A stretch of DNA of 64,000 nucleotides, from the NCBI RefSeq assembly GCF_032854445.1, contig NC_088295.1, positions 3,038,501 to 3,102,500 on the forward strand, written 5' to 3'. Numbering within the stretch: the first letter of the stretch is position 1; each line of letters begins with the position of its first letter. This stretch comes from Liolophura sinensis. Taxonomy: Eukaryota; Mollusca; Polyplacophora; Chitonida; Chitonidae. The translations under genes and the position numbers were made by a program. The notes below the pieces were generated by a model, which made no database searches, had not been told where the DNA came from, and saw nothing but the letters and a program-made list of their open reading frames with translations. Positions 9 through 47,400 of this stretch are shown in pieces.

Positions 9-3000
9 ATGCGTTGTGGTCCATTGCTTTGCCTGGCCCTCTTTCTTGCTGGAGTTGCACTGTCGGACAGCAGGAGGTTACGACGACAAGGTACGAGACC
101 ATCTTTACCTTCTTTCATCATAATCTGTATATTAGTGAATAACGCAGGCGTAGTGTTCGTGTAGCTTTCAAAAGTGATCGATGACAACTTAGTTGAATGT
201 CCGTGAAAATGTACCTTCAAAGAATTTGTAGAAAAGGTTATTTCTGGAAAATGACACAAACGAAGTAGTGAAGATAATTCGTCCAGTTTTATTTTGTTTT
301 GTACATTTGGGAACGGGCTAGTGTAAATTATGAACGTTTCAAACGTCATTTTTTGCAGCTGATTAGAGCAGACTTTAGGCCCGTCTATTATGAGCCTCAT
401 ATCAGTATGGTCCAGTACTGTATGATAAGTCAGTGGATCCATCGATAGATTAGTTGAGCGTTTTATTTCAAATGCTTTGATGAATATTCACTACAAAGTT
501 AATTTTCATACAGCGGAGTTACACCATACCAAACGTGTAATAAAACGAGTTTAAACTGAAAGAAAACAGCGGGAAAGTATGGCAAGTATATTATCACTTA
601 GTTCCTGGCTGACGTTCATATTCATCTATTCTTCTTTCCTTGTAAAATTAAGAAAATTACAGAAGAACATACAGGTGCGATATGCATATGTGAATGGCGT
701 TGTGGTTTGCACAGTCCTCTTCGCAGGTGATCGCTGTATGTTTACGTAATCAGACAAATGTTGTTCAGGAAGAATTGTTATGTTGTTATGGTAGTCTGAA
801 ACCAGTTAAACGGAGACGTAAATCTTCTTCTGTCACATGGCAGAATTTGATCCTTAGCTGACCAGAAGACCATAGGAGCTTTACGGATTGTTATACATGT
901 TGTTTATTCATGGCGATTCTGGTCATTAGCACCCTAGGCTATCTAACATGAAGACAATGGAACATGTGTTAAGGCTATATGCGATGTTACTGATCAGCTT
1001 ATAAAAGCTAACTGATATTAAGCGCCAAGTAAATCATATATGATCCCAATGTACACGTGGGCTAATAACCCGTGTTCAGTGGTCCGTACACGTTCCGTGT
1101 AGATTTGAGAACTCGTGTAGTCATTATCCTATGTCTTAAGCAGCCTCGGTGATCTAACAGATATGTCAACAGGTGGTCATACACAAGATGAGTTTTCATA
1201 AACTAGATTAATTAACTTTTGCTCGCTAATTGTACAAAGGTGAGTAAATAGTTGGTATACATGAACAAAGTTAATGTATCGGATGTTTACAAAATTACAT
1301 TAGCATATTGATACACCAAACAAAGTTTCAAGCGGATGGCGTAAAGTTGCATGGTTAGTCTGGCAATTGCCTTATAACGGCTGATTAGTCTAAACCTCCC
1401 CAACGTGTGAGGGAGTGTTTTTCTCTAATTAGAGAGCCTACAGCCGCCTACCCTCTTCCACAGATGTTGTATGTACACTCTCAGGATTCTCTTAGGGCTT
1501 CACATATAACAAGATGAAGGTCATGCTTCTGTTACCGTTCCGTCAGCCATTAGGGCATGAAGAAAGCTAAGCGTGTAAATAATCGTTTGAAACGTATGGT
1601 GATGTATATACTAATTTATATAGTAGACCGCTATAGTTTCAGTTTTTGCCCGTCGCCCAACAATTTAATATTGCTTGATTGCAGTAAATGGCAACCCGGC
1701 ATTTTTCTGCTACTATGCGACATGGGCGAAATACGGCCGTCTCCGCCCGGAAGCCATTGACCCGTTCATCTGTACTCATATCGTCGTGGCCTTCGCTGAG
1801 GTCAAGGTCAACTCTGTGACGGCCGATATCCAAGCTTTCGATCAAACAGATGAGAACGACGTGTAAGTATTAAAAATGACAATACGTGGGTAGAAAAAAG
1901 GAATAATTTGCGCTTATAAATGGCCACAGTACGTATCTATAATTGATGACAATGCGTGAGCTAGTGTAAACCGTGATGGTGTAAATAGAAGTGCTGATGT
2001 ACCATTATTAGAGAGCAATAACAGTTTGGAATTAATTAAAAATCCTGTTCCATAAAAACTGTTTTCTTCAAATGACGTCGGTCTCCATCCCCAGTGCATT
2101 ACCTTTTCGTATCAGTCATTTAGTCTGATTATAAAAGTTATTCAGACAAAACTGAATTCGACCTATTTGTTTGGTCCGTATATTTAATTGGTAGTGGTTT
2201 CATTTTGGGCTTAGATTTCCCGCCATGAGTGGCCTGAAGACCCGGAACCCGAATCTGAAGATGATTCTGGCGGTGGGAGGATGGAACCACGGTACCAACC
2301 GCTTCATCAGGGTGGCTGACAACCCAGCCTTGCTAAACAGCTTTGTCAAGAACACCGTCAACTATCTAAAGAGGTTCCAGTTTGACGGCTTAGACGTTGA
2401 CTGGGAATTCCCCACATCCAAGAGCCAATTCTCCCGATTTATCAGAGTGAGTACGCGATGTGCTTGTATAAACTGGCCATGATTGCCTCCCTTTAAGTGT
2501 CCGGCATACGGAGTACTTACGTCAATGTTCCTATCAGGCTTAACGTGTTCAGTATAACATCGTATTATCTGCGTGAAAATATAGTATAAATTATACAACA
2601 ATAACAGTCCTACTTGACTGGTTTCTGTACCCAGGCGTTACGGACGGAATTCAACCAACCGGGGAATTCTCACTTGATCTTGACATCGGCCATGTCTGCT
2701 GGTGAGGCGGCGATCATCAGTGGCTATGACATTCCGGACCTGGCCATGTGAGTACCGTGGCTGCCACAGCTACACACGACTTCCGGACAACACTTTACCT
2801 CACATATACATACTGATTTATGTCCCCACACAGTCTTGATAACGGGATATAGCAACTTCATAAAAATAAAAACTGCATATGACTCTTTGATTTAGCTTAA
2901 AAATCAAACGAACTTACCTCAGAAATTTATGCATATGTATACCCAGTGAATCGATGTGAGAAGGTAATTTTGCTTTGCACCCATAGTTAGTCCTTATTTT

Positions 3001-4893
3001 TCTCTTCTGCGCCTCCGCGGCCTTCGTGGCTTCCTTGATTAACGTGACCAAGGAACCCCTCACCAATGCGGTCTCAAGTAGGGACTCACGCTGGCTTCCT
3101 CTCCGGCCGTACGTGGGAAGATCTGTCAGCAACCTGAGGATGATTGTGGGTTTACCCCGGGCTCTGCTATGTTTTCTCCCGCCCTTCTGCTGGCCACCAG
3201 CGTATAGTTGAACTATTCTTGGCTACGGAGTAGTAGAACAGCAATCAAAGAAATAAATAAATTAATTAATTAAATCATTTGTTCTGGCTGTTTGTTTCGC
3301 CAGTACGCTGGACTACGTGCTGTTGATGAGCTATGACCTGCACGGAGGCTGGGAGGGTAAGACTGGACACAACAGCCCGCTGTTTGCGCGCTCGACAGAG
3401 GTGTCCTGGAGAGCACGATTAAACACAGTTAGTATATTGGCCATAAGCCTGTATCTGCTCCTCAAACAAAATGCTCCGTATTCGAATTCACAAATGCGTT
3501 GGTTAAAGAGAGTGTACCGCAGACTTTTGGCAAAAGGTTGGATATCACAAATTCAGTCGAATATATGCTATTATTTAATTACTGATAATTACCATTCACA
3601 GAATATCAGTCTCGTCAACATAACGTAACATTTGTAAAGCGTTTGGCATTGTAACTTTTTTTAAAAACTTTAGAATAATGTAAATATTACAGATACGAGA
3701 CTGATATTTGTTGAAAGGCACTAATTTAGAACTATTGGTAAATAGAGAAAATCTCAGGTATAGCCCTGTAATCCAATTCAGTAATTCAACCGCAGCCATG
3801 AGAAACACAACTAGAAATTGTTTGAATACTATTTACCTGCGAACTTTATTTATTTTAGAAGATTTGTGTTCTGATGGTGATTTGTACCTGATGGTAGATC
3901 ACACTTTACTACTGACTGGGTTAGAGTGAGCAGTTGGTAGTGGTATGTGATAGTGGAGCTTGTAACAGGAGGATGTATCTATATTACAGGCATGGGCTGC
4001 TAACGAATGGTTCCGTAAGGGAATGCCCCGCAGTAAGATAATCATCGGTATGACCACATACGCCCGCCGTTTTACCTTGAGAGACCCGGCTGTTCATGGT
4101 GTCGAAGCTCCGGCTGAATGGTGGAACGTTATACTGAACTATGCCGAGGTAAGTACATGTGTTATTATATTGTTTAGAAATGATGTGCTATATTACATTT
4201 TAGTGTTGCAATGGAATCGGATTCCATGTACATATATGTTCAAAATTCATCACATGTGCGAAAGTTCTATCATATTATCTATCATATCCACCAAATATGT
4301 CCAAATGCTCTTCACTGATAGAATGTACCTGATGCCTCGCGTACAATAAAGGAAAAATCTTGTAGCACCTCTCCCCTCCCACTGTATGTTGTTACCCATT
4401 TCGAGTCTCCTTGTTTTCCAGTCTCCTGGTTTCCTTTGTCCTTGTTTCCAGCTTCCTAATTTCCGATCTTCACATTTCCACTCTCTTTGTTTCAACTGTT
4501 TGTGTTTCCATTCACCATGTTTCCAGTCTCATTGTTTCCACTCTTCGTGTAACCACTCTTCGTGTTACCACTCTATTTGTCTTGATTGTGACGATTTCCT
4601 CTTTCCCTTTACAGGTATGCTCGGAATTCTTGCCTGGAAGTACCATTGTATGGGACGCTGAAAGCCAGGCGCACTACGCCTATAAAGGAAAATTATGGCT
4701 GAGTTTCGATAGTGTGGATTCTATACGAGCTAAGGTAAAATATACAGATAGAACTTGTGTTATTTATTTATCATATCGGCGTCCAAACTCGTCAGATGCG
4801 GAGATATAGATCAGATATGTTCGCTTTGATTGCTTTTCGGTAGATATGTTAGGGATGTTGGCTAAAGGCATCATTATTTATACCACCATTTCT

Positions 4894-4970
<77 letters not shown>

Positions 4971-4990
4971 CTAAACTTTCATATATAAAC

Positions 4991-5068
<78 letters not shown>

Positions 5069-8000
5069 GTTTAGCAACTATTATTCCCTGTGAGATGCAG
5101 TAATAGGCTTTTGCTGGTAATAACTATAACAGAGACTAACATAACCCGAATTTTCTTGAATTATCGTACACTTATCGTGACAAAGAAATGAAAAACGCCG
5201 TCTTTTAAATTACTTATTAATTTAAACACTTTAGATTTTAAGAGATAGTGTAAATATAACCAAATGAAGCGTTATTTTTGTCCAATTATTCAGACGAAAT
5301 GGCTGATGCAGAACAGATTTGGTGGGGCTATGGTGTGGACCATGGATCAGGACGACTACTCTGACAAGTGTGGCCAAGGCTTCAACCCGCTTCTCAGCAC
5401 TATTAAACAGGAACTCTTTGGTGACAATGGGTAAGGCAAGCTGGGACAACAACCATCAGATATGTTACATGTCAAAATTATCCTCATTGTATTGTCGTGA
5501 GCCAGGAACCCGGGATCAAAATAGCCAAAGATTGTAAAATTGACAACCGTGGCACCTCCTTTATCGACACTCAGAATTAGAGCCTGGCCCCTCCACTCTG
5601 TATTCTGAATAGTGTCCACATTTTATATTTCCTTGAGGCAGCACTACTCTGAATACTGTCCACAATGCATGTTTCCTTGAGATAGCACCACTCTGAATGG
5701 TGTCCACATTTTATATTTCCTTGAGGCAGCACTACTCTGAATGGTGTCCATAATGCATGTTTTATTGAGGCAGCACCGTTCTGAATGGTGTACTTTCTTG
5801 ACTCTAAGAATGAGGGCATTTCCCCAAGTATTGGATAATCCGATCTGTATTCTGACTGGTGTCCCCGTGTCATGTTTTAGCTATCCAGCGCTCTGTACAT
5901 GTGAATAGCCCATATATTAATATAAATAAGTCTCCATCATGATAAGACCTGAATAAGAATAAAGATAACATTAAGTCAAAATTAGACACACAAAATACAA
6001 TATACCCTGCACTGTCATATTTTCAGTTCGGTTAAAAATGAATTGGTTCGCAGAGCGAGCGAATTTTTAATCCGATGTAAACCTTTACTTCCCTTGCTAT
6101 AAGATAACTTTTATGGTATCAGTGTAACAGTGTCGCCGTTCCCTGGCCAGTTGTCAACTGTCACAGCCAACCCCGGCGGAGGCACCCCACCCACTACCAG
6201 ACCGACTAGTACAACAACAACAAGAAGGATTATCACACAAGGTATGTTCTTAAGCTCTCCCCTTATGTCGGACCTAAAGCTCTCCCTATGCCAGACCTAA
6301 AGCTTTCGTGTATACTGGGCCTAAAGCTCTCGTGTATACCCGGTCTAAAGCTCTCGTGTGTGCGGAGCCTAAAGCTCTCGTTTATGCCGAGCCTAAAGCT
6401 CTCGTGTATGCCGAGCCTAAAGCTCTCGTGTATGCCGAGCCTAAAGCTCTCGTTTATGCTGAGCTTAACGTCTTGTGTATGCCGGGCCTAAAGCTCTCCT
6501 GTATGCCTAGCCTAAAGCTCTCGTGCATGTCAAACATAAAGCTCTCCTGTATGCCAAGGCTTAAGCTCTCCAGTATGCCGGACCTAAAGCTCTCCTGTAT
6601 GCCGAGCTCAAAGCTGAGGTGTATGCCAGGCCTAAAGCTTTCGTGTATACTCTCCTTTATGCCAGGCCCTCGTGTGCGCCGGGCCTAAAGCTCTCGTGTA
6701 TGCCGGGCCTAAATCTTTCGTGTATGCAGAGACTAAAGCTCTCGTGTGTGTCGCTCCTAAAGCTCTCGTGTATGCCTGGCCTAAAGCTCTCGTGTATGCC
6801 AAGGCTTAAGCTCTCCTGTATGCCGGACCTAAAGCTCTCCTGTATGCCTAGCCTAAAGCTCTCGTGCATGTCAAACATAAAGCTCTCCTGTATGCCGGAC
6901 CTAAAGCTCTCCTGTATGCCGAGCTCAAAGCTGAGGTGTATGCTGAGCCTAACCTCCATGAAGTTTCGTCTGAAGTCATAGCCACACTAACCAATTTGCA
7001 AACATTCATGTTAAGACACAAACAGTAATCAGTGATTCAAGGCTAATCATTATGAAGGGCGTGATATCAATTTCAAGAAAGTGCCTGTAAACTATATGTA
7101 TGGTTACTGTCTGTTAACAGGTTCTGTCGACTGTTCAGTAGACCCTCCAGGCGATTACCCCATCACTGGAGAGTGTTCTGCCTTCATCAAGTGTGCCAAT
7201 GGACAGGAGTTCATTTTCCTCTGCCAAGACACATTGTTTTACGATCCGGAACTTTCCCGATGTGATTTTGAGAAGAATGTCAAACCCAAAAGATCAGACT
7301 GTCCTTGGTAAGATCTGCCCGTCCCTGTGCGGACCTGTGTCTTCTGTCCTCTGTGATCCGTCAGACAATTGACGTCTACGTCTTCCTCTCCTCTGGATTT
7401 TCACCTCATCATCTTTTTTGTCCCTATTCTCGTTATCGTGTTATTCCGCTCTCTGCCCATTCAACAATGATCAAGAACTGTTGAAATCTCCCATTGCCTG
7501 GTCACAAATGTGCTCTTATGTGTCAATCACGTTAATACTGGCTGGAACAATGTAGGCGTACTAGTATGTGCTTGTAATGCTTGTCGATAATGTTAATTGC
7601 CGTCGTATAAGTGAAATATTCTTGAGTATGGCGTAAAAACCAATCAATACTTGTACGATCAATATACTCCTATTTGCCAATCATGATGTTATCGAAATGA
7701 ACTTCATCGAACAAGTCATGTTAATGTGAGCAGGGTTAATGCGCTCTAATATGGAAGTGATGTAAATACCTAAAGGAACAACGCATATTCTAGTATCAAA
7801 CGTCATAGTCATATGTGTTATTTATGTAAATGCTGACATTTACAAGATAGAAAGTTAATGCTGACAGTCATGCGTAATGCGTACCGGTAGTCCTATTTTA
7901 ATAAAAACATTGAACATAACAAATTTTACCATTAATACAACCCGAGACGTATCCACTGTTTTGTAGAATGATTATGTCTGACAGGGATTTAACTTAAAGG

Positions 8001-22051: not shown

Positions 22052-25000
22052 ATGAAGGTAAGACGACTCTACTTTTAAATCTGTTGGAATCCGAAGTGGT
22101 AAGCTCCCCTTTCACATTCCATGTAAATTTGTTGCGATGTGATTAGATGAACTAACGTTTCGCAAGGATAAGTAAAACAGAACCGATGTTCCGACATGCG
22201 CAAACTTAACTGAGGAGTGACAATGTAGATCTTTAGAAAATCGCTCCATCATTAATACAGTCGGCATTACTTCTTAATAGATGTTTTTTACACTATAACA
22301 AGGCCAATTCAAAATCTGTTCGTTTTCTTACCCCTTCATCAAACCAACATATTATGCAAGACTTGCACAATGTTATTATGGATGAGAATTCAATGTAAAC
22401 CCTATATTTTTTATATTTGGAAAATGTTTGTTCATTTGATTTCCTCTTTTCACTTCTCTTCATTTGTTCTAGAAAACTATTCTTGGATACTTCGATCGAC
22501 GTACACGTGCCAAATGAAAACTTGTCGACATATCTTCTGACTTGGTGGTTATCTTGATTATGTGTCAGTCGAAGCTAAATTCCACTTGTTAACCACCAAG
22601 TCATATATTCTGTAAAAATGTGTCGGTAATCTTTGGATGTTATCTCTTTTTGTGAAATGGAGCCTCCGTGGCTCAGTCGGTTAGCGCGCTAGCGCAGCGT
22701 AGTGACCCAGAAGCCTCTCACCAATGCGGTCGCTGTGAGTTCAAGACCAGCTCATGCTGGCTTCCTCTCCGGCCGTACGTGGGAAGGTCTGCCAGCAACC
22801 TGCGGATGGTCGTGGGTTTCCACCGGGCTCTGCCCGGTTTCCACCCACCATAATGCTGGCCGCCGTCGTATAAGTGAAATATTCTGAGTACGGCGTAAAA
22901 CACCAATCAAAAAAAAAAAAAAAAAAAATCTTTTTGTGAACCAGCCGATTAAAACAGGTGCGTCCACAAAGACCTTCGAGTATTTCAGAGTTCACCAAGA
23001 AAATATCCTTTCGATAACCCTCAGGAGTAATCTATGTCATTATATTATATTTTGTATGTTCTGCGACGAGGGAACCGCCCTTGTACGATGAGAAACCGTC
23101 AAGGAATCATGTATAACTATCTGTTTAATTTTCATTTTCTTTCTTTGACAGTTGAATGCCACTTTACTTGGCTTTTAGTGAACACAATTCTATTGGTATC
23201 TTCCCAAAGGTAAGGTGCCGGGATAATCACTACAAGAAGATGTATATATGAACTGTAGCTAGAACTGTCTTCTCATTTCAGGTCCTGCTGTTTCTGGCGG
23301 TGTGTCTGTGGTCGGCAGGTAACCAATGTATATTTGTTTATTTATCTCATTGGTGTTTTACACCATACTCAAAAATATTTCACTCATACGACTAGTATTG
23401 TGATGGGAGGAAACCGTGCAGAGCCCGGAAGAAAACCACGACCATCCGCAGGTTGGTGGCAGACCTCCCCGCAGGCGAGGAAAGCAGCATAATCTAGACT
23501 TGAACTCACAGCGACCGCATTGGTGAGAGATTCCTGGGTCATTGCGCCGCGTTGGTGTGATAAACCGCTCGGCCACGGTGGCCCTTCAGTATTTATACTT
23601 TTTACCGGGTAGCATTTCACTAAAACGATTGAAAACAACACTCTCAAAACCAGTTTTATTCATTAAAATGGTTTTCATGATCATAAGAAGTAATTAACTT
23701 GATCATACTTTTTCTTCTTTTTACACTTCTATACCTATTGAAAACAAGTGCCCTAAAACTATTTATTTACCCCAAATGGTGTTCATTATGATATCAGGTA
23801 TCCATTTTAGTACCATTTAGCTACTGAAGCGAAATTTGTAAAAGCTTCCATTTTTTTTCCATGTTAACTGTTAATGTTGTGACACTGAGTCATGCAGTCC
23901 ACAGATTTATACAGCATCTGTTGCCATCAACTGCAGAGGAAACTACGCGGTGACTTAGTACCAGGATGTAAGAGTCACCAACTATTAACTTTTAAAGAAA
24001 AGTTCAAACGGAAAAAATTTGTTTGTTCCAAAAACAGTACCTTACTTTTGAAAATAAATGTGAAGAAAATATAGTCGTGGATTTGGTTATTTGTGGATTT
24101 TATTATGTTTCTGTCACATATTTATTGTTGTAGATGCTGCACTCCGACGCGTGTGTTACCATACCAACTGGTCTCAGTACCGATCTTCTCCCGCCAAATT
24201 CAAGCCCGCCAATATCGACCCTCATCTCTGTACACACGTGATATACGCGTTCGCCACACTCAATGGAAACAACCTGAAGCCTTTTGAATGGAACGACGAT
24301 TCGACAAGCTGGCAAAAAGGGCTGTAAGTAGTCCGCTATGCTCCTAAGTGTTTCTCACAGCTGTATAATCCAATCTGCCAGCACAGCTAAGCAATTCCCA
24401 CAGCTGTATAATCCACGCTGGCTACAGGGCTAAGCGATTCCCACCGCTAAGTAGTCCGATCTGTCGTCAGCGTTAAACAACTCTCACCGCTATGGGGCCC
24501 GCTCTGCAAACAGGACTAAGTGATTCTCAGCGCTACGTGCTCCGCTCTGTTGTCAGTGCTATGCGATTGTCACAGCTATGAAGTTCGCTCGGCCAACAGG
24601 GTTAAGCGATTTCTATAGCTCTGTATTCCGCTCTGCTAACCCGGCTAAGCCACCCTCACAGATATGAGATCCTCTCTGTCGTCGGGGCTAAGGGATTCTC
24701 ACAGCTAGGTGATCCTTTCTGTCGTCAGAGCTAAGCCATTCCCACAGCTATGTGGTCCGATCTGCCGACAGGGCTAAGTCATTCTCATGGCTTGGTCGTC
24801 ATCTGTCGTTGGGGCTGAGCGATTCTCACAGCTATGTGACCCGCTCTGTCAACATGGCTAAGTGATTCTCATAGCTATGTGGTCCTCTCTCTCGTCAGGC
24901 CTAAGCGAATCTCACAGCTATGTGGTCTTCTCTGTCGCCAGGGCTAAGCGATTTTGCAGCTAAGGGATTCGCTCTGTCGTTATATCTAAACCATTCTCAC

Positions 25001-28000
25001 AGCTACGTGATCCTCTCTGTGGTCAGAGCTAAGCGATTCTCACAGCTATTTGACCCGCTCTGCTAACAGGGCAAAGTGACTCTCACAACTATGTGATCAA
25101 CTCTGTCGTCAGGACTAAGCAATTGTCACAGCTTTGTGGTTTCTCTCTGTCGTCGGGGCTAAGCGGTTCTCACAGCCATGTGATCCTATCTGTCGTCAGG
25201 CCTAAGTGATTCTCACAATCATGTTGCCCGTTGTGTCGTCATGGCTAAGCGATTTCACAGCTATGTGGCCTGCTCAGCCGTCGGAGCGAAGCGATTTCAC
25301 AGCAAAAAGGCCCGTTCTGTCGTCAGGCCCAAGCGAATCCCACAGCTGTGTGTTCCGCTCTGTCGCCAGGGCTAAGGGATTCTCACAGCTGTGACTAGGT
25401 CAGTGGTAAGGGTTAAATGGACTTTGCACGTGGCTTTGAACTACGATATCTCAGGCATGCAACATCACCGGTACGAAAAGGTACGCTTTTTATACTAAAT
25501 GGGATCCTTTATCGATGCTTACATATATTTAGTCTAGTGTTTTCTTTAATTTTAACTGCTTGCTCAGTGTACCTGCCCTGCCCTAGGTAACGGGGTTTGA
25601 ATCCAGCCACGGTTCTAAGTGAGGATGTTTACCCAATACTTGAGGAAGGTCCATGGTTTACTCCGGCTTCTTCTACCAGTAAATTGGGTCATGTAAGTGA
25701 AAGATTGCTAAGCACGATATTAGACCTCAATAACAAATAAATAAAGAAGTAAATAAATAAAAAATATACTGTGATTATTGCAAACCTGTTGTCCAGGTAC
25801 GAGGACTTCACGGACCTAAAGAAAGTAAACCCTGCCTTGAAGACTTTACTGGCTGTTGGCGGTTGGAACATGGGCTCTGCCAAATTCACGGCCATGGTGA
25901 ACTCGGACGCCAGTCGCAGGGAGTTCGTCACTTCTACCATCCAGTACCTGAGAAAGAGGAACTTTGACGGCATCGACCTTGACTGGGAATATCCCGGTTC
26001 TAGGGGAAGTCCGGCAGGCGACAAGCAGCGATTTGTAACCTTACTGAGGGTAAGAAATAGACTGGAAGACTTCCAACCCAGTCGCACTTTCCTTGTCATT
26101 AGACTCCTCATAGAGCATTAGCTTGTTTACTTGTGAAACTTGTAGGCCAAATTGCACTGGCTTTATCATTTAACTAGGCCTATATAGGCTCATCTTGAAA
26201 ATACTTTATTGTTTACCGTTCATAAAGTAGACCATTTGCCCCCAAAATGTAAACTTTGCCATCTTTTTATCAGGAACTTCATGAAGCATTTGTTCAGGAG
26301 GCAGCCACTTCCGGTAAACCTCGTCTGATGCTCTCTGCCGCAGTTCCAGCAGGAAAGGATAAGATAGAGAACGGCTATGACATTCCTCAGATCTCCAAGT
26401 AAGTTATTGTGACGATATTCCACATGTCCCCAAGAAAGTCATTGTGACGCGTGTAGATGGAGAGCGATTACTATATTCCTTATGTCTCCAGGTAAGTTAT
26501 TGTGACACGTGTAGATAGAAAGCGCTTACAGCATTCTTTAGGTCCCCAAGTAAGATATTGTGACATGTGTATAGAGAAATGCTTATGATATTCTCCATGT
26601 CCCCAAGTAAGTTATTGTGACACGTGTAGATAGAGAGCGGTTATGACATTCTTTAGGTCCCCGAGTCAGTTACTGTGTAGACAGAAAGCGCTTACATTAT
26701 TCTCCATGTCCCCAAGTAAGTTACTGTGATATGTGTAGATAGAAAGCGCTTACAACATTCTTTAGGTCCCCAAGTAAGATATTGTGACATGTGTATAGAG
26801 AAATGCTTATGATATTCTCCATGTCCCCAAGTAAGTTACTGTGATATGTGTAGATAGAAAGCGCTTACAGCATCCTTTAGGTCCCCAAGTAAGATACTGT
26901 GACATGTGTATAGAGAAATGCTTATGATATTCTCCATGTCCCCAAGTAAGATACTGTGACATGTGTATAGAGAAATGCTTATGATATTCTCCATGTCCCC
27001 AAGTAAGATACTGTGACATGTGTATAGAGAAATGCTTATGATATTCTCCATGTCCCCAAGTAAGATACTGTGATATGTGTAGATAGAAAGCGCTTACAGC
27101 ATTCTTTAGGTCCCCAAGTAAGATATTGTGATATGTGTATAGAGAAATGCTTATGATATTCTCCATGTCCCCAAGAAAGTTACTGTGACGCGTGTAGATG
27201 GAGAGCGGTTACTATATTCCTTATGTCCCCAAGTAAGTTATTGTGACACGTGTAGATAGAAAGCGCATACAGCATTCTTTAGGTCCCCGAGTAAGATACT
27301 GTGATATGTGTATAGAGAAATGCTTATGATATTCTCCATGTCCCCAAGTAAGTTACTGTGATATGTGTAGATAGAAAGCGCTTACAGCATTCCTCCGGTC
27401 TCCAAGTAAGATATTGTGACATGTGTATAGAGAAATGCTTATGATATTCTCCATGTCCCCAAGTAAGTTACTGTGACGCGTGTAGATGGAGAGCGGTTAC
27501 TATATTCCTTATGTCCCCAAGTAAGTTATTGTGACACGTGTAGATAGAAAGCGCTTACAGCATTCTTTAGGTCCCCGAGTAAGATATTGTGACATGTGTA
27601 TAGAGAAATGCTTATGATATTCTCCATGTCCCCAAGTAAGTTACTGTGACACGTGTAGATAGAAAGCGCTTACAGCATTCTTTAGGTCCCCAAGTAAGAT
27701 ACTGTGATATGTGTAGATAGAAAGCGCTTACAGCATTCCTCCGGTCGCCAAGTAAGATATTGTGACATGTGTATAGAGAAATGCTTATGATATGTCCCCA
27801 AGAAAGTTACAGTGACGCGTGTAGATGGAGAGCGGTTACTATATTCCTTATGTCCCCAAGTAAGTTATTGTGACACGTGTAGATAGAAAGCGCTTACAGC
27901 ATTCTTTAGGTCCCCGAGTAAGATATTGTGACATGTGTATAGAGAAATGCTTATGATATTCTCCATGTCCCCAAGTAAGTTACTGTGATATGTGTAGATA

Positions 28001-31000
28001 GGAAGCGCTTACAGCATTCTTTAGGTCCCCAAGTAAGATACTGTGACATGTGTAGATAGAAAGCGCTTACAGCATTCTTTAGGTCAACAAAGTAAGATAC
28101 TGTGACATGTGTATAGAGAAATGCTTATGATATTCCCCATGTCCCACGTAAGTTACTATGACGCGTGTAGATGAAGAGCGGTTATGACATTCTTTAGGTC
28201 CCCGAGTCAGTTACTGTGTAGACAGAAAGCGCTTACATTATTCTCCATGTCCCCAAGTAAGTTACTGTGATATGTGTAGATAGAAAGCGCTTACAGCATT
28301 CTTCAGGTCCCCGAGTAAGATACTGTGACATGTGTAGATAGAAAGCGTCGCGAAGATAGCGGTTATGGCATTCTTTAGGTCTACAGGAAAGTTGCTGTGA
28401 CACGTGTAGATAGAGAGCGGTTAAGGCATTCCTTAGGTCTACAAGTAAGTTACTGTGACACGTGTAGACAAGGAACGGCTATGGCAATTTTCAGGTCTAC
28501 ACGTGAGTTACTGTGTCACTTGTAGGTGGCTATAGCATTTCTCAGATCTCGCAGTAAGTTATTGTGTGACGTGTAGATGTGGTATATAGGGTACGTTTTT
28601 GTGTGACGTGTAAATGTGGTATATAGGGTACGTTATTGTGTGACGTGTAGATGTGGTATATAGGGTACGTAGATATGGTATATAGGGTATGTAGATGTGG
28701 TATATAGGGTACGTTTTTTGTGTCACGTGTAAATGTGGTATATAGGGTACGTTATTGTGTGACGTGTAGATGTGGTATATAGGGTACGTAGATATGGTAT
28801 ATAGGGTATGTAGATGTGGTATATAGGGTACGCAGCTGTTGCATTCCACAATATTCCAATTATTCATATATGGATTCTGAAAACTGTTCCACACGCTACT
28901 GCAGGCATTCTGAAATATTAGCACAAAGCCGAGGATTGTTTTTCTGGAACTTGGACCAAACGTTTTCACAACTCAGATGTAGGCGTAAATGGCATTGTCT
29001 GTATGTTCTAGCTTCACAATTAGGCGTTTATACCAAGTAAGATACGAAACACTGACATAGAAATTCGTATCTTATGACAGAGCCTTCCTTGTGCTCTGGT
29101 TGAGAACACATTTACCATTATGACTTGTAGTTACAGCCGTATATACAACAGATAATTTAACAGTGGTTCTGGCATTTCCAGGTACCTTGACTTGATCAAT
29201 CTGATGACTTACGACCTGCACGGCACGTGGGAGGACCACACGGGTCTGAACAGTCCGATGTTCAGACGTAAAGACGAGACGGGTGATGATGTCTACCTCA
29301 ATGTTGTGCGTTTATATTTCTAATATCGATTCTTATTTGGAGGCTGAGAAAGGTTATGATGTTGCAATCGCACCATGTTTTTGTACATCACTATTGTCGT
29401 TCCATTGTTCTATATGTGCCATGTGGAAAATATACGACATCCTTGTGAAACTGGCCCGTGGAGTGGGCCATCGTTCTGAAGAGTGGTAGCATCGCTTGGC
29501 AGCAATGTCAAGCGATCCTGCAGTGATAAATGATCCATCAAATGCATAAGGGGCTTTCATAGTTCTGGAATTCCTTACCTGTATGGTGTACAGCAGATAA
29601 CGTCCAGATTAATCAAATTCTATGCAAACTACGCCTAATGTGGTACGGGCATATCGCTGATTGAGTGGTATAAAGTGCTGCATGTCGGGCAATGCTCTAG
29701 AGCGATCCACTGTCAAACTTTATTAAATATATACTTACAGATTTAATTTGACAAAAACCAACGTAACAGTAAAAATCAAAATGGAATGTATGCTGATGTA
29801 CGAAAATAATTGCATTTAATTCATTAGAACCTTTGGAAATTAGATGGCGGTTTTGCATAAAAACAGTATCACTGACTTGTTCGGATATTAATGCTATATG
29901 TGTCTGTGTGACCCCTCAGGACTGGGCGGCTCGTTACTGGGCCTCTCATGGTGCACCTAAGGACAAGCTAAACATCGGGATGCCGCTTTACGGTCATGCA
30001 TTTACTCTGCAAGACACATCCGCCGTCGCCCCCGGGCAAGGGAAGGCCACCAAAGGACAGGCTGGCCAATATACCAGGGAGGCTGGGTTTTTGGCCTATT
30101 ACGAGGTATAGCATCTGCAAGAAAGAAAACAGATAAGGATCTTAAATGTGCACTTAGATGCATGTATACAAATCTTCACCAGCTACATGTACGCTCCAGG
30201 TATTTATCCCCAAAAAGATTTCCTAAACAACGTTCACTTCAATCCTAAAGAAGCCAAAATGATTGCAGTGTTGCAGATGCAGATCTAGTAAAGATGTACA
30301 CGGAATCATTAAAATCATTTATGAGATTAAATGTATTCATTTCGTTCAAATGACTAGTAGAAATCTAATTGTTGCTGGTCATAGGTTCATTCAAGCTAGG
30401 TAACCCAGAAGAGCTACGCCGGTGTGATGACTGGTATCTGGTTGTATATGGAGTTCGGTCAGCAAATATTGTTTACATCAGTCAAAGTGTTATTCTGACT
30501 GTGGATGTACATGTTTAGCGGTTACCTTAATACATAGCACAAATATACCATTGTTTTTGCTCAGATTTGCCAGATGCTGAAAACCGGTGGGAAGAGGTAC
30601 TGGGACAACGAACAGCTGTCCCCATACCTGGTTAAGGGCAATCAGTGGGTTGGTTATGACGATCCACAGAGTCTGAAGATCAAGGTAACTGGCAGTTAAA
30701 CATAAATTATCCTCAGTATTTAAGCGTACATTGTTGTAAACAAAAGCAAAATTTATATGTCTCAAAATTTCATTCACCTCAGTGTAGCAGTTAAGGTGAC
30801 TTTTATTTAAGTTTTGGTGAAAAGTAAAACCTTCTCTTGTATTGTGCCAGGTGGACTACGTAAAGAAGAACAATTTTGGTGGGATTATGGTTTGGGCGCT
30901 ACCTTTGGATGATTTTGGCGGCTTGTGTGACGGCCACACAAAGTACCCCTTGATGAAATCTATCATCACCGCCCTCGGAAGCAGCTCACCCATCGTCCTG

Positions 31001-33179: not shown

Positions 33180-34600
33180 TATACAAATGGCATATGACTT
33201 ACCCAATACAAATGGCACATGATTTATCACATGCAAATGGTGTATGGTTTTCCCGGTACCAATGGCACATGACTTATCCCATACGCATGGTGTATGACTT
33301 ATCCGATACAAATGGTAGATGACGTGTCCGACACAAAGAGCACAAGACATCCGGTACAAATGGTATATGACTTACCCGATACAAAAGGCACATGACTTAT
33401 CCGGTACAAAGGTATATAACTCATCCGATACAAATGGCACATGACTTATCCAATACAACTGGTATATGGCTTAACCGATACAAATGGTATATGGCTTATC
33501 CAATACAAATGGTATATGGCTTATCCAATACAAATGGTATATGGCTTATCCAATACAAATGGTATATGGCTTAACCGATACAAATGGTATATGGCTTATC
33601 GAATACAACTGGTATATGACTTATTCAACAGCCTGGGACTCGACCATGATGGCGTGTAACTTCGGATAAAGTTCCCATTCCCAGAATGGTGTATGACTTA
33701 TGCGACAAAAATGGTTTATGACTTTTAAGATACAAATGCTATACGCTTTATCAAATAGAAATGGTGTATGACTTATTCGGTACAAATGTTACATAACTTA
33801 TCCAATACAAATGGAACATGACTTCTCCGGCACAAATGGTACGTGACTTATCCGGTAAAAATGGTACATGACTTATCTGGTACACATGGTGTATGACTTC
33901 TCCGACACGAATGGCACATGACTTATCCGACACAACTGGCACATGACTATCCGACATAAATGGCACATGACTTATACAGTACAAATGGTGTACGAGTTAT
34001 CTGATACAAATGGCATATGACTTATGCGGTAAAAATGGCACATTACTTATCCGACACAAATGGCACATGACTTATCCGATACAAATGCCACCTGACTTAC
34101 TCGGTACAAATGACACATGGTTTCGCCGGTACAAATGGGATATAAATTATCCGGTACAAATGGTGTATAACTTATCCGACACAAATGGCACATAACTTAT
34201 CCGGAACAAAGGGCACATGACTTATCCGGTACAAATGCTATATCACTTGTTCGGTACAAATGGTGTATGACTTATCCGACATAAATAACTGGACTTATTC
34301 AACACAAATGCCACTTGACTTATCGGGTACAAATGGCACATGACTTCTCCGGTATAAATGACACATGAATCTTCCGGTACAAATGGTATTAGACTCATCT
34401 GGTACAAATGGCACATGACTTATCCAACACAAATGGTATATGACTTATCCGGTACAAGGGGCACATGACTTATCCGGTACAAATAGTATATAACTTATCC
34501 GGTAAAAATAGTGTGACTTTTCCGATACAAATGGCAAATGACTTATCCTGTAAAAATGACTCATGACTTATCCAACACAAATGGTATAAGACTTATACAG
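33180..34600. repeat. 25-bp minisatellite, left block
   Basis: Unit is close to CACATGACTTATCCGGTACA followed by AATGG, with variants GTATATGAC and GACACAAA. About 55 copies, interrupted by a fragment of gene B exon 12 (33628-33681), then by the reverse-transcriptase element. Short open frames here are repeat artefacts. Confidence 0.92.
33628..33681 (+). pseudogene. Captured fragment of gene B exon 12 inside the 25-bp array
   Basis: ACAGCCTGGGACTCGACCAT, then GATGGCGTGTAACTTCGG and AAGTTCCC, matches 32479-32536 (end of CBM14 no. 2) with a few substitutions and a small deletion. It starts and ends directly in array units and cannot encode a domain on its own. Confidence 0.88.
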
Positions 34601-37600
34601 TGCAAACTGGGACCATTTCAGCATTCAAATAATGGAATCGGTTTATCCATCAACAAATGAGACAGATGTCGAATTCGAACGTAAAATCCGTGACCGTGAG
34701 CTTTTCAGGATGATAGAGATTGGTTCAGTCTTCCCATATGGGTTGAATGATAACGTTATGAGAATGGGCAATGTAACATCCAGCCAACCACATGACTCCA
34801 TCATAACAAATTTATTCAAATACCATAAACATAGACCTCGCAGTCATGGTAGGAGGAAGTTCAACAGAAACATGATTTACAAACACGTTACAGTTAGCTA
34901 TTTAGTAGGATTGTCGTTTGACACCAATAGCATGCATGCTTTCCGCACAGTATTATATGCACTGCCATTGAACTTGCTAAAACAGGTAGCTCAAGACGTA
35001 TCCAATAACATACACAATTTTAATGTTCCACCTCACCTTGTACGTCTGTGTCAAGACATATCGTATTTTCGATTGTATCGCCCTGTAACTACAATTGAAA
35101 CTCAACACGATCGGCTCATTCTGAAGATAAAGTATTTAGACAGTGGCCTTGATTTAATTAACCCACCACGCATCTTTAATCAACCTGATGTTCGTAGTGC
35201 TGTGCCTAATTATTTTAATATCCAAGAGCTATCTTGCATATCCTATGAGTATATAAAGCCTATCACTTCCAAAATTTTCAATTATTCCCAGGCCATCAAG
35301 GAGTTCTATTTGGCGACGTATACTTCTGGCGACTATAACTGTCATTGTGAATCCTCAGTTTTTACCTACGACAAATGTAAACATGTCCTGACTGGTGACC
35401 TTAATATTGTTAAGAATCATGATCTAAGGAATCTCTTTGTGAGAGGTCCTAAGTATATAGAAAAGAGAAATGTCAACATTCGATCTAACAAAAAAATATC
35501 AATCGGCGCTTGAGGAATATGTTAAAAAATGGTCAAAACGGGAGAAAGTGGATTCTTTGGTACTTAACGATTGGCTTGAGATTGTCAAAAAGAAGGTTAG
35601 TTTAGCTATACACTGTATAGACATTGATGCTCTACTTAAAGTTAAACAGGTTCCCACTGTTCACGAAACACTCGCTGGCTTTCATGGTAAATTTGTCATC
35701 ACTGTAGCAGACAAGGCTCCTAATAATGTCATCTTTATTTGCAAGAACTATTATCAAATTCTTGTTCAAGAGCTATGTACATCTACAACAACATCCACGT
35801 ATTCTGCTACTACATGTACTCTGGAGGAACTATTTAACGAACACAAAACCTTTCTAAAGAAAGACGCATAAATATATCTACCCGTCATACAGAAATACCA
35901 CAACTTCACTGGATTCCTAACATGCATAAATCCCCATACAAAGCTCGATTTATTGCGGGTTCAAGAAGTTGTACCGCCAAACTCTTGCCAACCCTAATTA
36001 CGAGAGCGTTACAAGGAGTAAAGTCATTTTGGAATAAGTGCTGTTGTGCAATTACAAAAAATTCAGGTGTCAACTGCATGTGTATTCTTAACAATTCTAA
36101 ACGTTTTACAGAAAAACTTGATGCTGATATGCATATACCGTACAAAGACTTATCCACATGGAATTTCTCTACTCTCTATACTACGATTCCTCACAAAGAC
36201 CTTCTTGAAAGAATATCGTCGTTAATTGTCTCGGTATTTACTAAAACAGGTCACCGTTACATTAACGTCAGAAGCAATAAGGATTTCTTTAGTTCTACTA
36301 TTTATAAAGCTAATCACTCATGGGATGTTACATTATTTATTGAATTACTTGAATTTCTCATTAATAACATCTATGTGAAATTCGGGGATACTATTTACCA
36401 ACAGTGCATAGGTATTCCAATGGGTATCAATGGTGCGCCTCGTTTGGCAGACCTATACCTGTTTTCATATTAATACGACTATATGCAGAAATGACTTAAA
36501 AGTAATATCTTTAAAACTCGATCCTTTTCATTTACCAAGCTGTATATGGATGATCTACTGGCGTTAAATAAACCCCATATTGCTGAAGCGGTGAAGAAAA
36601 TCTATTCCCCTCCATTGGATTTAAAGGAGACAACAGATAGTCCTGATGGTCCTGATTGGATCTATATCTGTACAAAGACGAACAAGGTCTCCTTTCACGC
36701 CGCCTTTACGACAAAAGGGATAATTTCAATTTTGATATTGTAAATTATCCTTATTTGGATAGCAATATACCAAAGGGTCCTGCATATGGCGTATACATAT
36801 CTCGCCTTGTAGCATTTGTCACATCTTGCGTTAATTGTGATGAATTTAATCTGCACCACAAGTTGCTATTTCAACAACTAGTTTGTCAAGGTTACTCCAT
36901 CAAACGCCTTCATTCTAAGTTTCTCAAATTTTACACTGAGTACAACACTCTCGTTGGCAGGTAGGGACAGAGCATTCAGAATCTCTGGCGATCCTCATTG
37001 TGATCAACCACATAGACGGCGCTGTTATCCCTATGTACATATCTATCCCGTACAAGGTATTTAACAACATAGATGGCGCTGGTTGCCGAGTGTAACCGTC
37101 TATCTTGCAGACAGCTTTTATACAGACCAGCATGTCCTGTGTAACATCATAGATGGCGCCTGTTGTAGTATGAGATCCTTACATATTAACGGGAAAGACG
37201 TAATCGTCCGTTACTTTTGAATCACAATCTGATCGGTTAAGGTCTGTAACGCTCGTCATTTTCGAACTGTATCTAATAACGCTTAACCTGGGGCTAGGGG
37301 CCGTAAAGGCAGCCATGCGCATTACATCTGCATGATGCGTTTATGGACAGTTGCAATCAAAGCGCGACTGAGATACTTGTTTAATTTTTATTTGACCTGA
37401 AACTCATTCGTGGACTACGAATTTGAATTTTGATATGGAATTCATGCCTGGAATATCCACTGTGTGCCCTGCATCATTGAAAACTGATGGCCGCTTCTCT
37501 CTTGTGTGTTACCGGCTTTATTTCTTATTTGTATAATTTCTTACATACCTTTGTCTTTGGGAGCTAGTGTTCAACGTTGTTTTGGAAATGGATCTTGCGA

Positions 37601-41426: not shown

Positions 41427-44400
41427 ATGGCGAATCGAATGGTCTGCTTACTTCTGCTACTGGTGGTTAACATCAGCATAGGTTTGTCTCCTCTTCGCTT
41501 TGAGTTTTTCTCTCAGGTGAAGGTATAGATGTCAATGTACATGTCTCTTACAGAAGAACGTTTCACATCCAATTGCATTAAATATTGCCAACTGCTGCGA
41601 AACGTGTTGGCATGTTTATAATACTAACATTTTATTTTTATGGACCGCTCAGTTTTAAACTTTCAAAACTGTTCCCGATGTCATTGCTGCAGTCTGATTG
41701 GGAAATTTTTTTTAACTGGTGCCAAGACAGGGGATTTATACCGAAAGCTTCTAAATGTTTCTTAATTAACTTCCCTCTCAAAAAGACTGGCCAGCTTTTT
41801 CAGCGTAGTCTAGGATCAAACATTCTACATTACATCTTTGTTTGTATCTGACTGATCAACCATGCTTCTCGGCGAATGTTAACAAGATTTTAAAGAAAGC
41901 CTTCAGATTCCTCGGATTTTTAAAACACAATAGCAAATCTCTTGAAAGCTTAGAAGCTATAAAATCAATATATAAGCTTAGTTAGAAGCCATTTGTAATA
42001 TAGTTATGTGTTCTGGAACCTCTACCCAAACTGTTTATCAGAAAGAATTGAAAATGTAAAAAAGAAATTTCATTAAGTATTTGTGCCATCGATGGAATAT
42101 AGCACAGATCTTACTGATTATACGATTGTGCAAACGATTTATTCTTCCAGCTTGCACTCGACAAAAGATGCAAATAGTTTGAACTTGTGGCTTTACATAG
42201 ATGTACATAGATGTTTAAATAGTTCTTCTAGCTGTATATATGTTAACAAGTAGAAGATTTTAAAGAGCACCTGTTCGGGGAATCCCGCTCAAAATCCCCG
42301 TTTTACTCTCCACCTAGTCATTTTTTGTGGAAGAACCATGTTTAATAAGTTTCCAGGATCTTTTCAACAAACTATCCTCCAGATCGGACATTGACAGTTT
42401 TAACGATTTACAACATTTTAAAACTAAATACATAGACATGTTGTTCTGATATGTTTTTATTAAGCTTTTTGTGTCTTTTACATTACATTTGTGGCTATTA
42501 ATATGTAAACTCATCTATCTGTTAAGTTATGCATGTACAATTCGTCAGATTTTGCTAATCATCCAGATCTGTTCTTATTCAGTTTGTTATCGTCTCTGTA
42601 AACGGACATAACAGCGGTCTGTATGAGAACGAGTAAATAAACTAAGCTAAGTAAAGCTACAGCAGAGATACATGTATGCGGAATTTAAATCCGCCATTTT
42701 GCAGTTTGATCTGTGTTTTAGACAAACCTACCAAGCATACCTTCCTGGCTAGGAGGTTACATATTAGTTCAGGTCTATTAGACTTGAGGGCATCCGTTTC
42801 ATACATAAATATATGTAGATAAATGATGGATAGAATAATATCCAAACAGAATCCAGTTTGTATAAGAGAGAGCTATAGAATGTCTATTGTCCACGCTCAC
42901 CATCGGCTTTGTTTTCAGTGTTTGGGCGCCATGTTGTGTGCTACTATTCGAACTGGGCACAGCATCGGAGAGGAACTGGCACATTTGTCCCAGAAAACAT
43001 TGATCCAAAACTCTGCACACATATCATTTTCGCTTTCGCTGGTTTAGTTGGAAACAAACTATCGCCGACGGAATGGAATGACGCCACGCCAGGCGGAATG
43101 TGAGTACATTTCCAGATAAGTGACAGCCAGTTCACATTCAACATTTGAAGATTTGAAAATATATACGAATACACCGGTAGGTTCTAAGACTTTAGATAAC
43201 ATATTGATTGTATTTGGAATGTTAATCTTTATACATTCATCACCACATTCCCGAAGGATTCTATGAGGATATACTATCACGATGCCATACTTGGCTGAAA
43301 TGTCATCATTCTGCATAAAACAGGTATTCAAGGATTAACGATTTAAAGAAAATCAACCCGAATCTGAAAACGCTGCTGGCTGTGGGAGGCTGGGGCCTGG
43401 GCGTGTCTGTTTTCACACAGATGGTCGCCTCCTCATCATCCAGAGCGACTTTCGTAGCCGACACAATCACCTACCTTAGGAGGTTCAACTTTGACGGTTT
43501 AGACCTGGATTGGGAGTACCCCGCGGCGAGAGGAAGCCCTTCCGTGGATAAGAAGAGATTCACACAACTCGTCATGGCAAGTACTTTCTGGCATTTTCCG
43601 TCATTTTCAGCCCTAGAATTTGTGCTAAAGTTTTAATGTGTCAACCCAAATAAGAATGAAATGAAGAAAACTGACAGTCTCTGATGATCTAACAAATCTG
43701 GTCAACTTAAATATGAGCCAATAAACTGAAAAAGGGGAATATTTTGCAGGAACTCAGGAAAGCTTTTCGGAGTGAATCTCTTAGAACAAGGCAGAACGAA
43801 TTGTTGTTAACTGCGGCCGTACCGGCCAGCAAATCCATCGTGGATCAAGGCTACGAGGTGCGGGAGATTTCGAGGTATGGGCAGCACTAACATCAGTGGT
43901 GGGCTCTTAGCGATTGCCTTACACATATATTTGTATACATACTTTCTCATGATCATTTACTAGAGTACTGTATTGGGTCATGCTCAGAAGTATTCCACTT
44001 ATACCCCTGCAGAGGAAAATGTACCTCTACAGGTATTTGAAAAATCCACAGGCTGTAATGTCGTAAACGGGTCCGTAGTAGCTGGGTTCGAGTCCGCAGC
44101 CTCTGTGTTATAGATACGCTGGTCTGGAAAGAGGAAATCTGTGCTTTTTTATCATTCAGATATTAGAACGCTTGATAGCCGTCAGTTTCTGTACTATATA
44201 TTTTATTTGGCAGAGACCTGGATTTTATCAACTTAATGAGTTATGATCTGCATGGATCATGGGAAGTGACCACAGGCCACAACAGCCCACTGTACCCCAG
44301 GAGTAGTGAATTCGGGGCTAATCGTCAGCTAAATGTGGTAAGTAAACCAATCAGGGAAGCGCTAGAGGTGGTAAATAAACTACTCAGTGGTCATTAAAAT

Positions 44401-47400
44401 TTGGCAAGGTCGTATGTAAACTAATCAGTGGTCAGTAAAATGTTGCAAGTAAACCAATCAGTAATCTGCTAAAGAGCGTAAGTAAACTAGTCAACGATCA
44501 GCTAAATGTGACAAGGAAACCAGTCAGTGATCTGTTAAAGGTGTAGGTAAACTATTCAATGACCAGTAAAATGTTGTATGTAGACCAATCAACGGTGAGC
44601 TAAATGTGCCACGGAAACCAATTAGTGTTCTGCTAAAGTTGGTCAGTAAACCAATGAGTGATGAACTGACTTTGACAAGGATGCCAGTCAGTGATCAGCT
44701 AAATGTGAGAAGGAAACAAATCAGTGATCTGTTAAACGTGGTAAGTTAACTATTCACTAATCAGTGAATTGTTGTAAATAAACCAATCGATGCAGAGATC
44801 AGCTATGCGTGTTAAAAAAAAAACATTGGTCTGCTATAGACGGGAAGTAAACCAATCGATGATCAGCAGCTCTTTGCTGTGTGCAAGACAAAATGAAAGG
44901 TAGCAGACAATGTACAGTATAGTGAGGAAAGAAATGTCATTTTTTTTTTTCAGAAATAAAATGCATTCGTGTTTATTTTTCATAACACATTAAATAAGTC
45001 ATTTGGTATGGTTCTTTCGTCAGCAATGGGCAGCAAACAACTGGGTGGCCTTGGGTACTCCTCGGTCAAAGTTAGTGGTGGGAATGGGCATGTACGGTCG
45101 AGGCTTCCGACTAGCCTCGGCCTCCAATAACGGTATGGGTGCCCCAGCAGTGGGAGCCGGGAGTCCCGGTCCCTTGACACAGTCAGCCGGATTCATGGCT
45201 TACTACGAGGTACCGTATACAACAGCACCATAAGCTGTATATAGTGTAATCACAGAGAATTGAAAATGACGAGTTTGACTGTTAAGACAACGGTTTCATC
45301 TTCTCTAACATGTTAATCTACATTTTGTTCACATGCATACTTCGTAGTCAGCATTTGTTTGTACACAAAACTTGAAGATAGCACAACATTCTTTATACCA
45401 CTACAAATGTGTCTCAAATATATTTCACATCATGTATCATACTTTTTTCATTTCTCTGTATTCAACTTCATATGGATACCTGTCTGAAATCATTATTATT
45501 ACTACAATAGCCTGAAGAAATTAGTTGAAAATGCATTTGGGGTATACCCATGAAATTGTTCAGGGGTAGTTTGGAAAGTAGAAAGTTTAACTAGTCGGAA
45601 TTCAGTTATAATACTCCCTGGGGCTTTAATGTTATGTTTGAGTACTAAACATCTCTGTTCTTCCACTCTGCCCAGGTGTGCAGCTTCCTTCGTAACGGCT
45701 GGACACGCTACTGGCATAACGAACACAAAGTTCCCTATGCTGTTCAGGGCAGGGAATGGGTAGGGTACGACGACGTGGAGAGTATAACTATCAAGGTAAC
45801 ATGAGCTTCCTGAACGACAGCCTTTGTATTGCTCACAGCTGTCATATTGCTCGAAACAATTCACACTGATTTCTGAAATTTTCAAAATCATTTTCTAAGC
45901 TGTATGAATTGTATCTCTCTTGAACTGTGTGGTAACATTATTTCATAAGTCTTGACCACAGAGTTTCTTAATTATCAATTTAATCATCTTTTCCTATCAC
46001 GATAAGGAGTAATTTTAAGATGACTGTTTTAATATTTCTTAATAATGAAGCGCTTATCTCACCCTGAACGATATCCCGTACAAACGAACGGCAGTTTCAA
46101 CGATTACGCTGTATTACTCTGACACTAATAGTGCGTAACATGTTAAAGCCTTAATAAATACACCATAGTCAAAACTTTAAAAATCTGTGAGGATGGTTTT
46201 GAAATAATTAAATGATTTCTCATCCTTTGAAAATAATTTCCAAAGTTAAAAATAGAACTGAAAAATCTTACAGATGAACAAAAGTAATTAATAGCACTCT
46301 AGCGCTTCATATTTTTGTATATATACTACAGCATGATGATCATAGCATGATGATTAATGCATGGTAATTAAAGCATTATGATTAAAGCATGGTGATTAAA
46401 GCGGATGTTTTCATCTGAGGATTTTTATTCTTTTCTTGCCCCTTTTTACAGACTCAGTGGATCAAGAGTCAAGGTTTTGCTGGTGGGATGATCTGGGCTA
46501 TTGATGAAGACGATTTTAGTAATGAGTGTGGTGGCGGGAGGTACCCTCTGCTGACCACCATCAACCGCCAGTTGAACACGTACACGCCCCCACGGCCACC
46601 ACCCACCACTACCGCCAGGTAACGGCTAACATAAAGCACATACTTCCGTTCTGTTCACATAGCGACATTCTAAGAAAATTAAAACCTCATCTTGGAACTT
46701 AAATGACATTCTTATATAACGGAGGCCACGATTACATGGCTGTAGAAATATAAACTTTGTTTTATATAAATTTTTCCTATGTGTTTTTTTTTTTTTTTCA
46801 TTTTTTATAAATATTTGATATTTATATATTTATTTGATTGGTGTTTAAGAACGTCATGAAGAATTGTCCACTTATACAACGGGCGACAGGATTATGGCTG
46901 AAGGAAACCGGAGTTAGTAGAGTAAACCAAATCCGTTTTCATACAAGGGCCAATGTTGGCTTTTTTGTCATGTATTAATCGTCGTTATAATCTGGGGGCT
47001 CCGTGGCTCACTCGGTTAGCGCGCTAGCGCAGCGTACTGACCCAGGAGCCTCTCGCCAATGCGGTCGCTGTGAGTTCAAGACCAGCCTATGCTGGCTTCC
47101 TCTCCGGCCGTACGTGGGAAAGTCTTCAGCAACCTGCGGGTGGTCGTGGGTTTCCCCCGGGTTCTGCCCGGTTTCCACCCACCATAATGCTGACGGCCGT
47201 CGTATAAGTGAAATATTCTTGAGTACGGCGTAAAACAACAATCAAAAAAGAAAAAAAATCGTTATAAACTTAACCGAATTCTTACATTTTATGTTAAACG
47301 ACCATTGATGCAGTCAGACACATTACATATTGAAAATGACACTACAGATGCCATCAAATATATTGTAGATTACTTGATTCAAACAATTCTGTTACTTGAA

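Follow-up and report, generated by a model that had tools for sequence, protein, structure and literature searches.

Chitinase genes and features of the locus

The window, by which we mean the whole 64,000-base stretch analysed here, contains three chitinase genes (A, B, and C), all on the + strand, and tandem arrays with a period of 10 or more occupy 17,647 of its bases. The joined exons of gene B encode a complete GH18 domain (Pfam GH18, E 2.2e-104), and the closest PDB entry is acidic mammalian chitinase (E 1.3e-133). Intron 5 of this gene extends from 26399 to 29181, with the GT of the true donor at 26399; the junction between exons 5 and 6 is in phase 2 (AA/GTAAGT...CAG/G TAC), and the reading frame remains open into exon 6. 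The end of exon 5 aligns with GYEIPELSKYLD of acidic mammalian chitinase, which is conserved chitinase coding sequence, and a 63-mer across the exon 5 junction has one match in the one assembly. Behind the true donor lies a minisatellite, followed by a second array, and a smaller array of the same type was found in gene C (Table 1). Elsewhere in the window, long open frames at 34590–36961 resemble a Penelope-like reverse transcriptase by eye, and for two of them Pfam returned nothing at an E cut-off of 0.01.

The genome carries the molluscan haemocyanin domain PF14830 as eight tandem matches on one contig, compared with none in 14 control genomes. The mitochondrial gene order, read by eye from translations and ARAGORN output, is one that we take to be molluscan and chiton-like. 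A lancelet origin of the genome, suspected at first from the literature on such repeats, was rejected on the strength of the haemocyanin domains and the mitochondrial order; the GFP family PF01353 also went unmatched, although the control was equally silent. Seven copies of cox1 lie ~15.5 kb apart on one contig (G000:C99), i.e. the mitochondrial genome has been assembled head to tail.

Table 1. Positions in the window of the gene B exons, the junction arrays, and neighbouring features
Feature	Position	Strand	Basis
Exon 5, GH18 chitinase gene B	26274..26398	+	Reading frame of joined exons, Pfam, PDB
True 5′ splice site CAA/GTAAGT and first ~20 nt of intron 5	26399..26418	+	
Junction minisatellite, 38 units, donor positions 26434 to 28554	26419..28573	+	
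Second array, 37-bp and 119-bp periods, begins in last unit	28554..28839	+	Tandem Repeats Finder
Exon 6, gene B, joined to exon 5 via outermost donor	29182..29305	+	
Junction array at the donor of intron 6 in chitinase gene C (intron from 44338)	44323..44856	+	

Structure of the array in gene B intron 5

The initial annotation placed about 38 donor-bearing units behind exon 5, and exactly 38 were found. Each unit comprises ~38 nt resembling the end of exon 5 followed by ~20 nt resembling the start of intron 5, and the donor positions are mostly 57 or 58 bp apart. The donor was said to be mirrored in the units; this holds for 34 of the 38, which keep GT at the donor position, but not for the remaining four, which carry GA instead. 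GTAAG is present in 31 units and the exact 9-mer of the true donor, CAAGTAAGT, in 12, and 32 of the 67 GTAAG words in the window fall inside 26399–28560. An acceptor-like piece had also been ascribed to every unit, but TTCTTTAG occurs just 12 times in this interval and thus belongs to a minority of units. The microexons envisaged on this basis are improbable, as only ~8 nt separate TTTAG from the next donor and the TTTAG piece is itself confined to that minority.

We used the last 40 nt of the exon together with the first 25 nt of the intron as a local alignment query against the remaining intron, with 40 shuffles for comparison, and applied the same procedure to all 21 introns of the three genes. 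The junction of gene B intron 5 scored 72 against 23.2 ± 2.8 for the shuffles (17 SD), with a score of 27 for the best of the other 20 junctions, and the exon part alone scored 46 against 19.7 ± 2.1 (12.5 SD), with 26 for the best other junction. Over the 36 exon nucleotides that precede the GT, ungapped identity averages 63% across the 38 units, and 21 of them beat the top random placement (23/36) among 19,127 placements elsewhere in the window, so the similarity is well above chance. In addition, a 230-bp stretch of the array gave 13 genome matches (609 Mb; repeat counts in this search are lower bounds, very common words being skipped), all of which lie within the gene B array and none at an unrelated locus. 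These alignments bear out the proposal that the units are copies of the real exon 5 junction. Since the end of exon 5 encodes a conserved part of chitinase, the exon is the older partner and seeded the array.

Along the array, the exon letters TCAGATCTC are retained in the last unit and altered in the inner units of the alignment, which fits weaker homogenisation at array edges; in the accessible text on lancelet globin genes, comparable repeats likewise show less homogenisation toward the array edges (PMC3087553). The second array has GTTATTGTGTGACGTGTAGATGTGG in common with the last junction unit by eye, as if the intron half of that unit had expanded again.

Similar arrays in other introns and gene families

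Across the 21 introns of the window, a second donor junction stood out. Gene C intron 6 holds 11 copies of the exon end CGTCAGCTAAATGTG plus donor with a 33-bp period, six of them with GT; the junction scored 47 against 21.1 ± 3.5 for shuffles (z 7.5) and the exon part 26 against 17.3 ± 2.2 (z 3.9). The gene C unit has no match in window positions 1–24000. Apart from these two introns, no donor junction in the 21 exceeded z 2.7, and weak scores were obtained for the exon start at gene C intron 3 (z 3.4) and the acceptor of gene A intron 6 (z 2.8). Arrays can also start close to a donor: the one in gene B intron 3 (window 24344–25390) starts 20 bp past the donor (junction z 1.5, exon z 1.0) and the one in gene A intron 9 (window 6273–6952) 31 bp past it (junction z 2.3, exon z −0.4), and in neither was a convincing exon part found. 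Among 20 intronic arrays, 10 lie within 60 bp of a splice site compared with 4.7 expected (uncorrected P 0.0045), with uncorrected P values of 0.20 for 20 bp and 0.29 for 35 bp; the closeness of intronic arrays to splice sites is thus only weakly non-random.

Outside the window, exon 5 has 12 matches in the genome, from which nine loci were retrieved and introns examined in eight (the ninth, L010, has exon 5 alone), giving 35 tested introns. In one paralog (L004), the start of exon 6 is preceded by four further copies of itself, three of them with CAG; this acceptor array scored 98 (z 26.5). Another (L003) shows an array on the acceptor side that includes little of the exon (z 7.8), and a third (L006) has one additional donor copy (z 6.5). 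In the oriented copy of L003, a 30-bp pyrimidine-rich array almost fills the intron (2331–5810), with ~81 copies of a unit containing CACCTCAG and many acceptor-like sites.

Two other gene families were surveyed. Among SLC6-type loci (the best 30 of 109 matches, and therefore biased to long exons), L063 has a donor array (z 22.4) with eight aligned copies downstream, some with ~40 nt of exon; on its acceptor side, the score of z 9.5 comes from an intronic repeat that lies apart from the exon. The locus L056/L072 has an acceptor array of 37 copies with AG in 23 and a mean identity of 87%, which ends at the real exon, and that exon matches PF00209; a tRNA-like, SINE-like insert between L056 and L072 seemingly interrupts the array by eye. 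Single degenerate copies account for the donor scores of L055 (z 7.9) and L065 (z 4.2). In cytochrome P450 genes, none of 30 exon loci has an exon-containing junction array (the best 30 of 99 matches, so biased to long exons and intronless genes), from which we conclude that junction arrays are not everywhere. Five P450 loci (L014, L016, L019, L032, and L038) passed z 3.5 on one side, and on inspection none proved to be an exon-containing array; L038 (acceptor z 4.4), for instance, has an intronic array only. Tandem arrays make up 4.8% of the P450 loci, 6.5% of the SLC6 loci, and 12.9% of the chitinase-paralog loci, compared with the 17,647 of 64,000 bases in the window.

Origin of the array and alternative explanations

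The age of the array relative to its intron can be judged from the paralogs. Ten paralogous introns 5 (A4 and C5 in the window and those of the eight loci elsewhere) have no array at the donor (z between −1.9 and 1.3 on that side), so the intron predates the array. We consider it very probable that the array is a splice-junction minisatellite, or ‘mirage’, which is neutral and has survived since splicing takes the outermost junction. A tandem duplication of ~58 bp across the boundary of exon 5 and intron 5 would have placed a second exon-end-plus-donor inside the intron, and unequal exchange or slippage may then have lifted the copy number to 38. The outermost copy, 5′-most at donors and 3′-most at acceptors, would be the one spliced, which would leave the mRNA unchanged and the array presumably neutral and without function. 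Use of the outermost junction is what the reading frames suggest, and in the five clear cases (gene B, gene C, L004, L063, and L056/L072) the coding copy is indeed outermost. If the outermost junction is spliced, junction-spanning repeats would be the sole class of exon-containing repeat able to grow without altering the protein.

The units could instead be remnants of a tandem duplication of the whole of exon 5, i.e. alternative exons, as exon sequence is present in them. However, a period of 57/58 bp has room for only ~38 of the exon's 125 nt, and the piece preceding the exon part in each unit aligns with the start of the intron rather than with upstream exon, which makes this origin very unlikely. 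An intronic minisatellite of the ordinary kind, with GTAAG in it by chance and resembling the junction by coincidence or shared splice-signal composition, might be expected in a window so rich in tandem arrays, but the exon part without the donor is itself 12.5 SD over shuffles and 20 points over any other junction, and we give this reading practically no weight. The same holds for the suggestion of the initial annotation that the array acts as a buffer should the true donor be lost: the true donor's 9-mer is available in the 12 units noted above, yet skipping the true donor reads ...QIS-K-stop (AAG TAA), which ends the frame at once, roughly midway along the GH18 domain, so that all decoy products would be truncated and decoys cannot restore the protein. 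A role of U1 in shielding the transcript from early polyadenylation was rejected, as intron 5 is without AATAAA or ATTAAA and there is nothing obvious to protect; the remaining 20 introns of the three genes hold 12 AATAAA in 11,356 bases.

The initial annotation also proposed that the donors might mislead or titrate U1 snRNP. In a multivalent decoy, U1 bound to the unit donors would compete with the true donor or stall its pairing with exon 6; intron 5 would then be detained and chitinase output lowered or regulated. The frequency of GTAAG in the units is in its favour, and by duplex energy 17 of the 38 units (one without GT) equal or exceed the true donor in pairing with U1, so that decoy weakness does not explain their being ignored. 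There is also a precedent in the sites of human decoy exons, which according to the accessible text are bound yet seldom used and cause intron retention (PMC12017769). As regards RNA structure that might hide the decoys, their predicted accessibility (median 0.029) is above that of the surrounding stretch (median 0.015) and somewhat below that of the true donor (0.075). The donor columns, moreover, are not specially conserved across units: they rank 11th among 51 windows of nine columns. Selection on the decoys, in either direction, is thus not indicated, and the conservation of decoy sites among copies expected of decoy exons is not seen. Loss of GT in four of the 38 units and in five of the 11 gene C copies is as expected from drift, the 10 paralogous introns tested lack the array at the donor, and lancelet mirages are reported, in the text available, as leaving splicing undisturbed (PMC3087553). 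Taken together, we regard a decoy function as improbable. Only a little more room, and still a slim chance, is left for a broader scheme in which U1 along intron 5 would delay its removal, changes of copy number between individuals would tune chitinase output, and junctions would be a recurrent birthplace of minisatellites in this mollusc.

Comparison with known systems

The neutral junction minisatellite that we favour has its nearest counterpart in lancelets, where such repeats are named ‘mirages’ and, in the accessible parts of two papers, are described in Adh3, the globins BflGb6 and BflGb9, troponin C, and PGBD5 (PMC3087553, PMC3902484). Like the gene B array, these are minisatellite-like tandem duplications across an exon–intron boundary, either 5′ or 3′ (PMC3087553, PMC3902484), and in both systems, as far as that text describes them, the splice signal is kept in many but not all copies (GT in 34 of 38 for gene B and six of 11 for gene C). 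Lancelet RT-PCR, as presented there, suggests that mirages leave regular splicing intact (PMC3087553). The systems differ in host, a mollusc here and a lancelet for the mirages so described, and in copy number, with 38 and 37 copies here compared with six and three units in two BflGb6 haplotypes. They also differ in the relation to the intron, which here is shared by paralogs and thus preceded the array, in contrast to the idea of intron gain put forward in that literature for lancelet globin genes. Intron gain through duplication of an AG/GT proto-splice site, as outlined in the same source (PMC3087553), also involves tandem-duplicated splice signals, but no new intron has arisen here, the intron 5 position being present in 10 of the 10 paralogs tested.

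Human decoy exons (OGT, SF3B1, and ARGLU1) are similar to the units in being intronic splice sites that need no use, but the available description is of a single element of ~150 bp that has weak sites and was selected for a regulatory role (PMC12017769), whereas gene B has tens of copies of its true donor. One unit (window 26489–26497, GT at 26492) reads CAG/GTAAGT, a perfect match to U1 right behind an acceptor-like CAG and with a pyrimidine-rich lead. This unit, one of 38, resembles a recursive splice site and is a candidate for one. Reports of junction-spanning repeats outside lancelets were not found among the titles and abstract openings listed, most subscription papers being beyond reach.

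Implications

Most likely, the gene B array is a further case of the lancelet type of mirage, here in a mollusc genome, and the range of mirages is thus not limited to lancelets. In the literature that we found, junction minisatellites have so far been described as a lancelet oddity; clear cases in two unrelated mollusc gene families, at donors as well as acceptors, suggest a wider class of repeat. As the rule for the survival of such repeats, we propose that the coding copy remains outermost. Junction arrays would then offer natural tests of how the spliceosome chooses among many equal sites, and may represent a standing source of cryptic splice sites.
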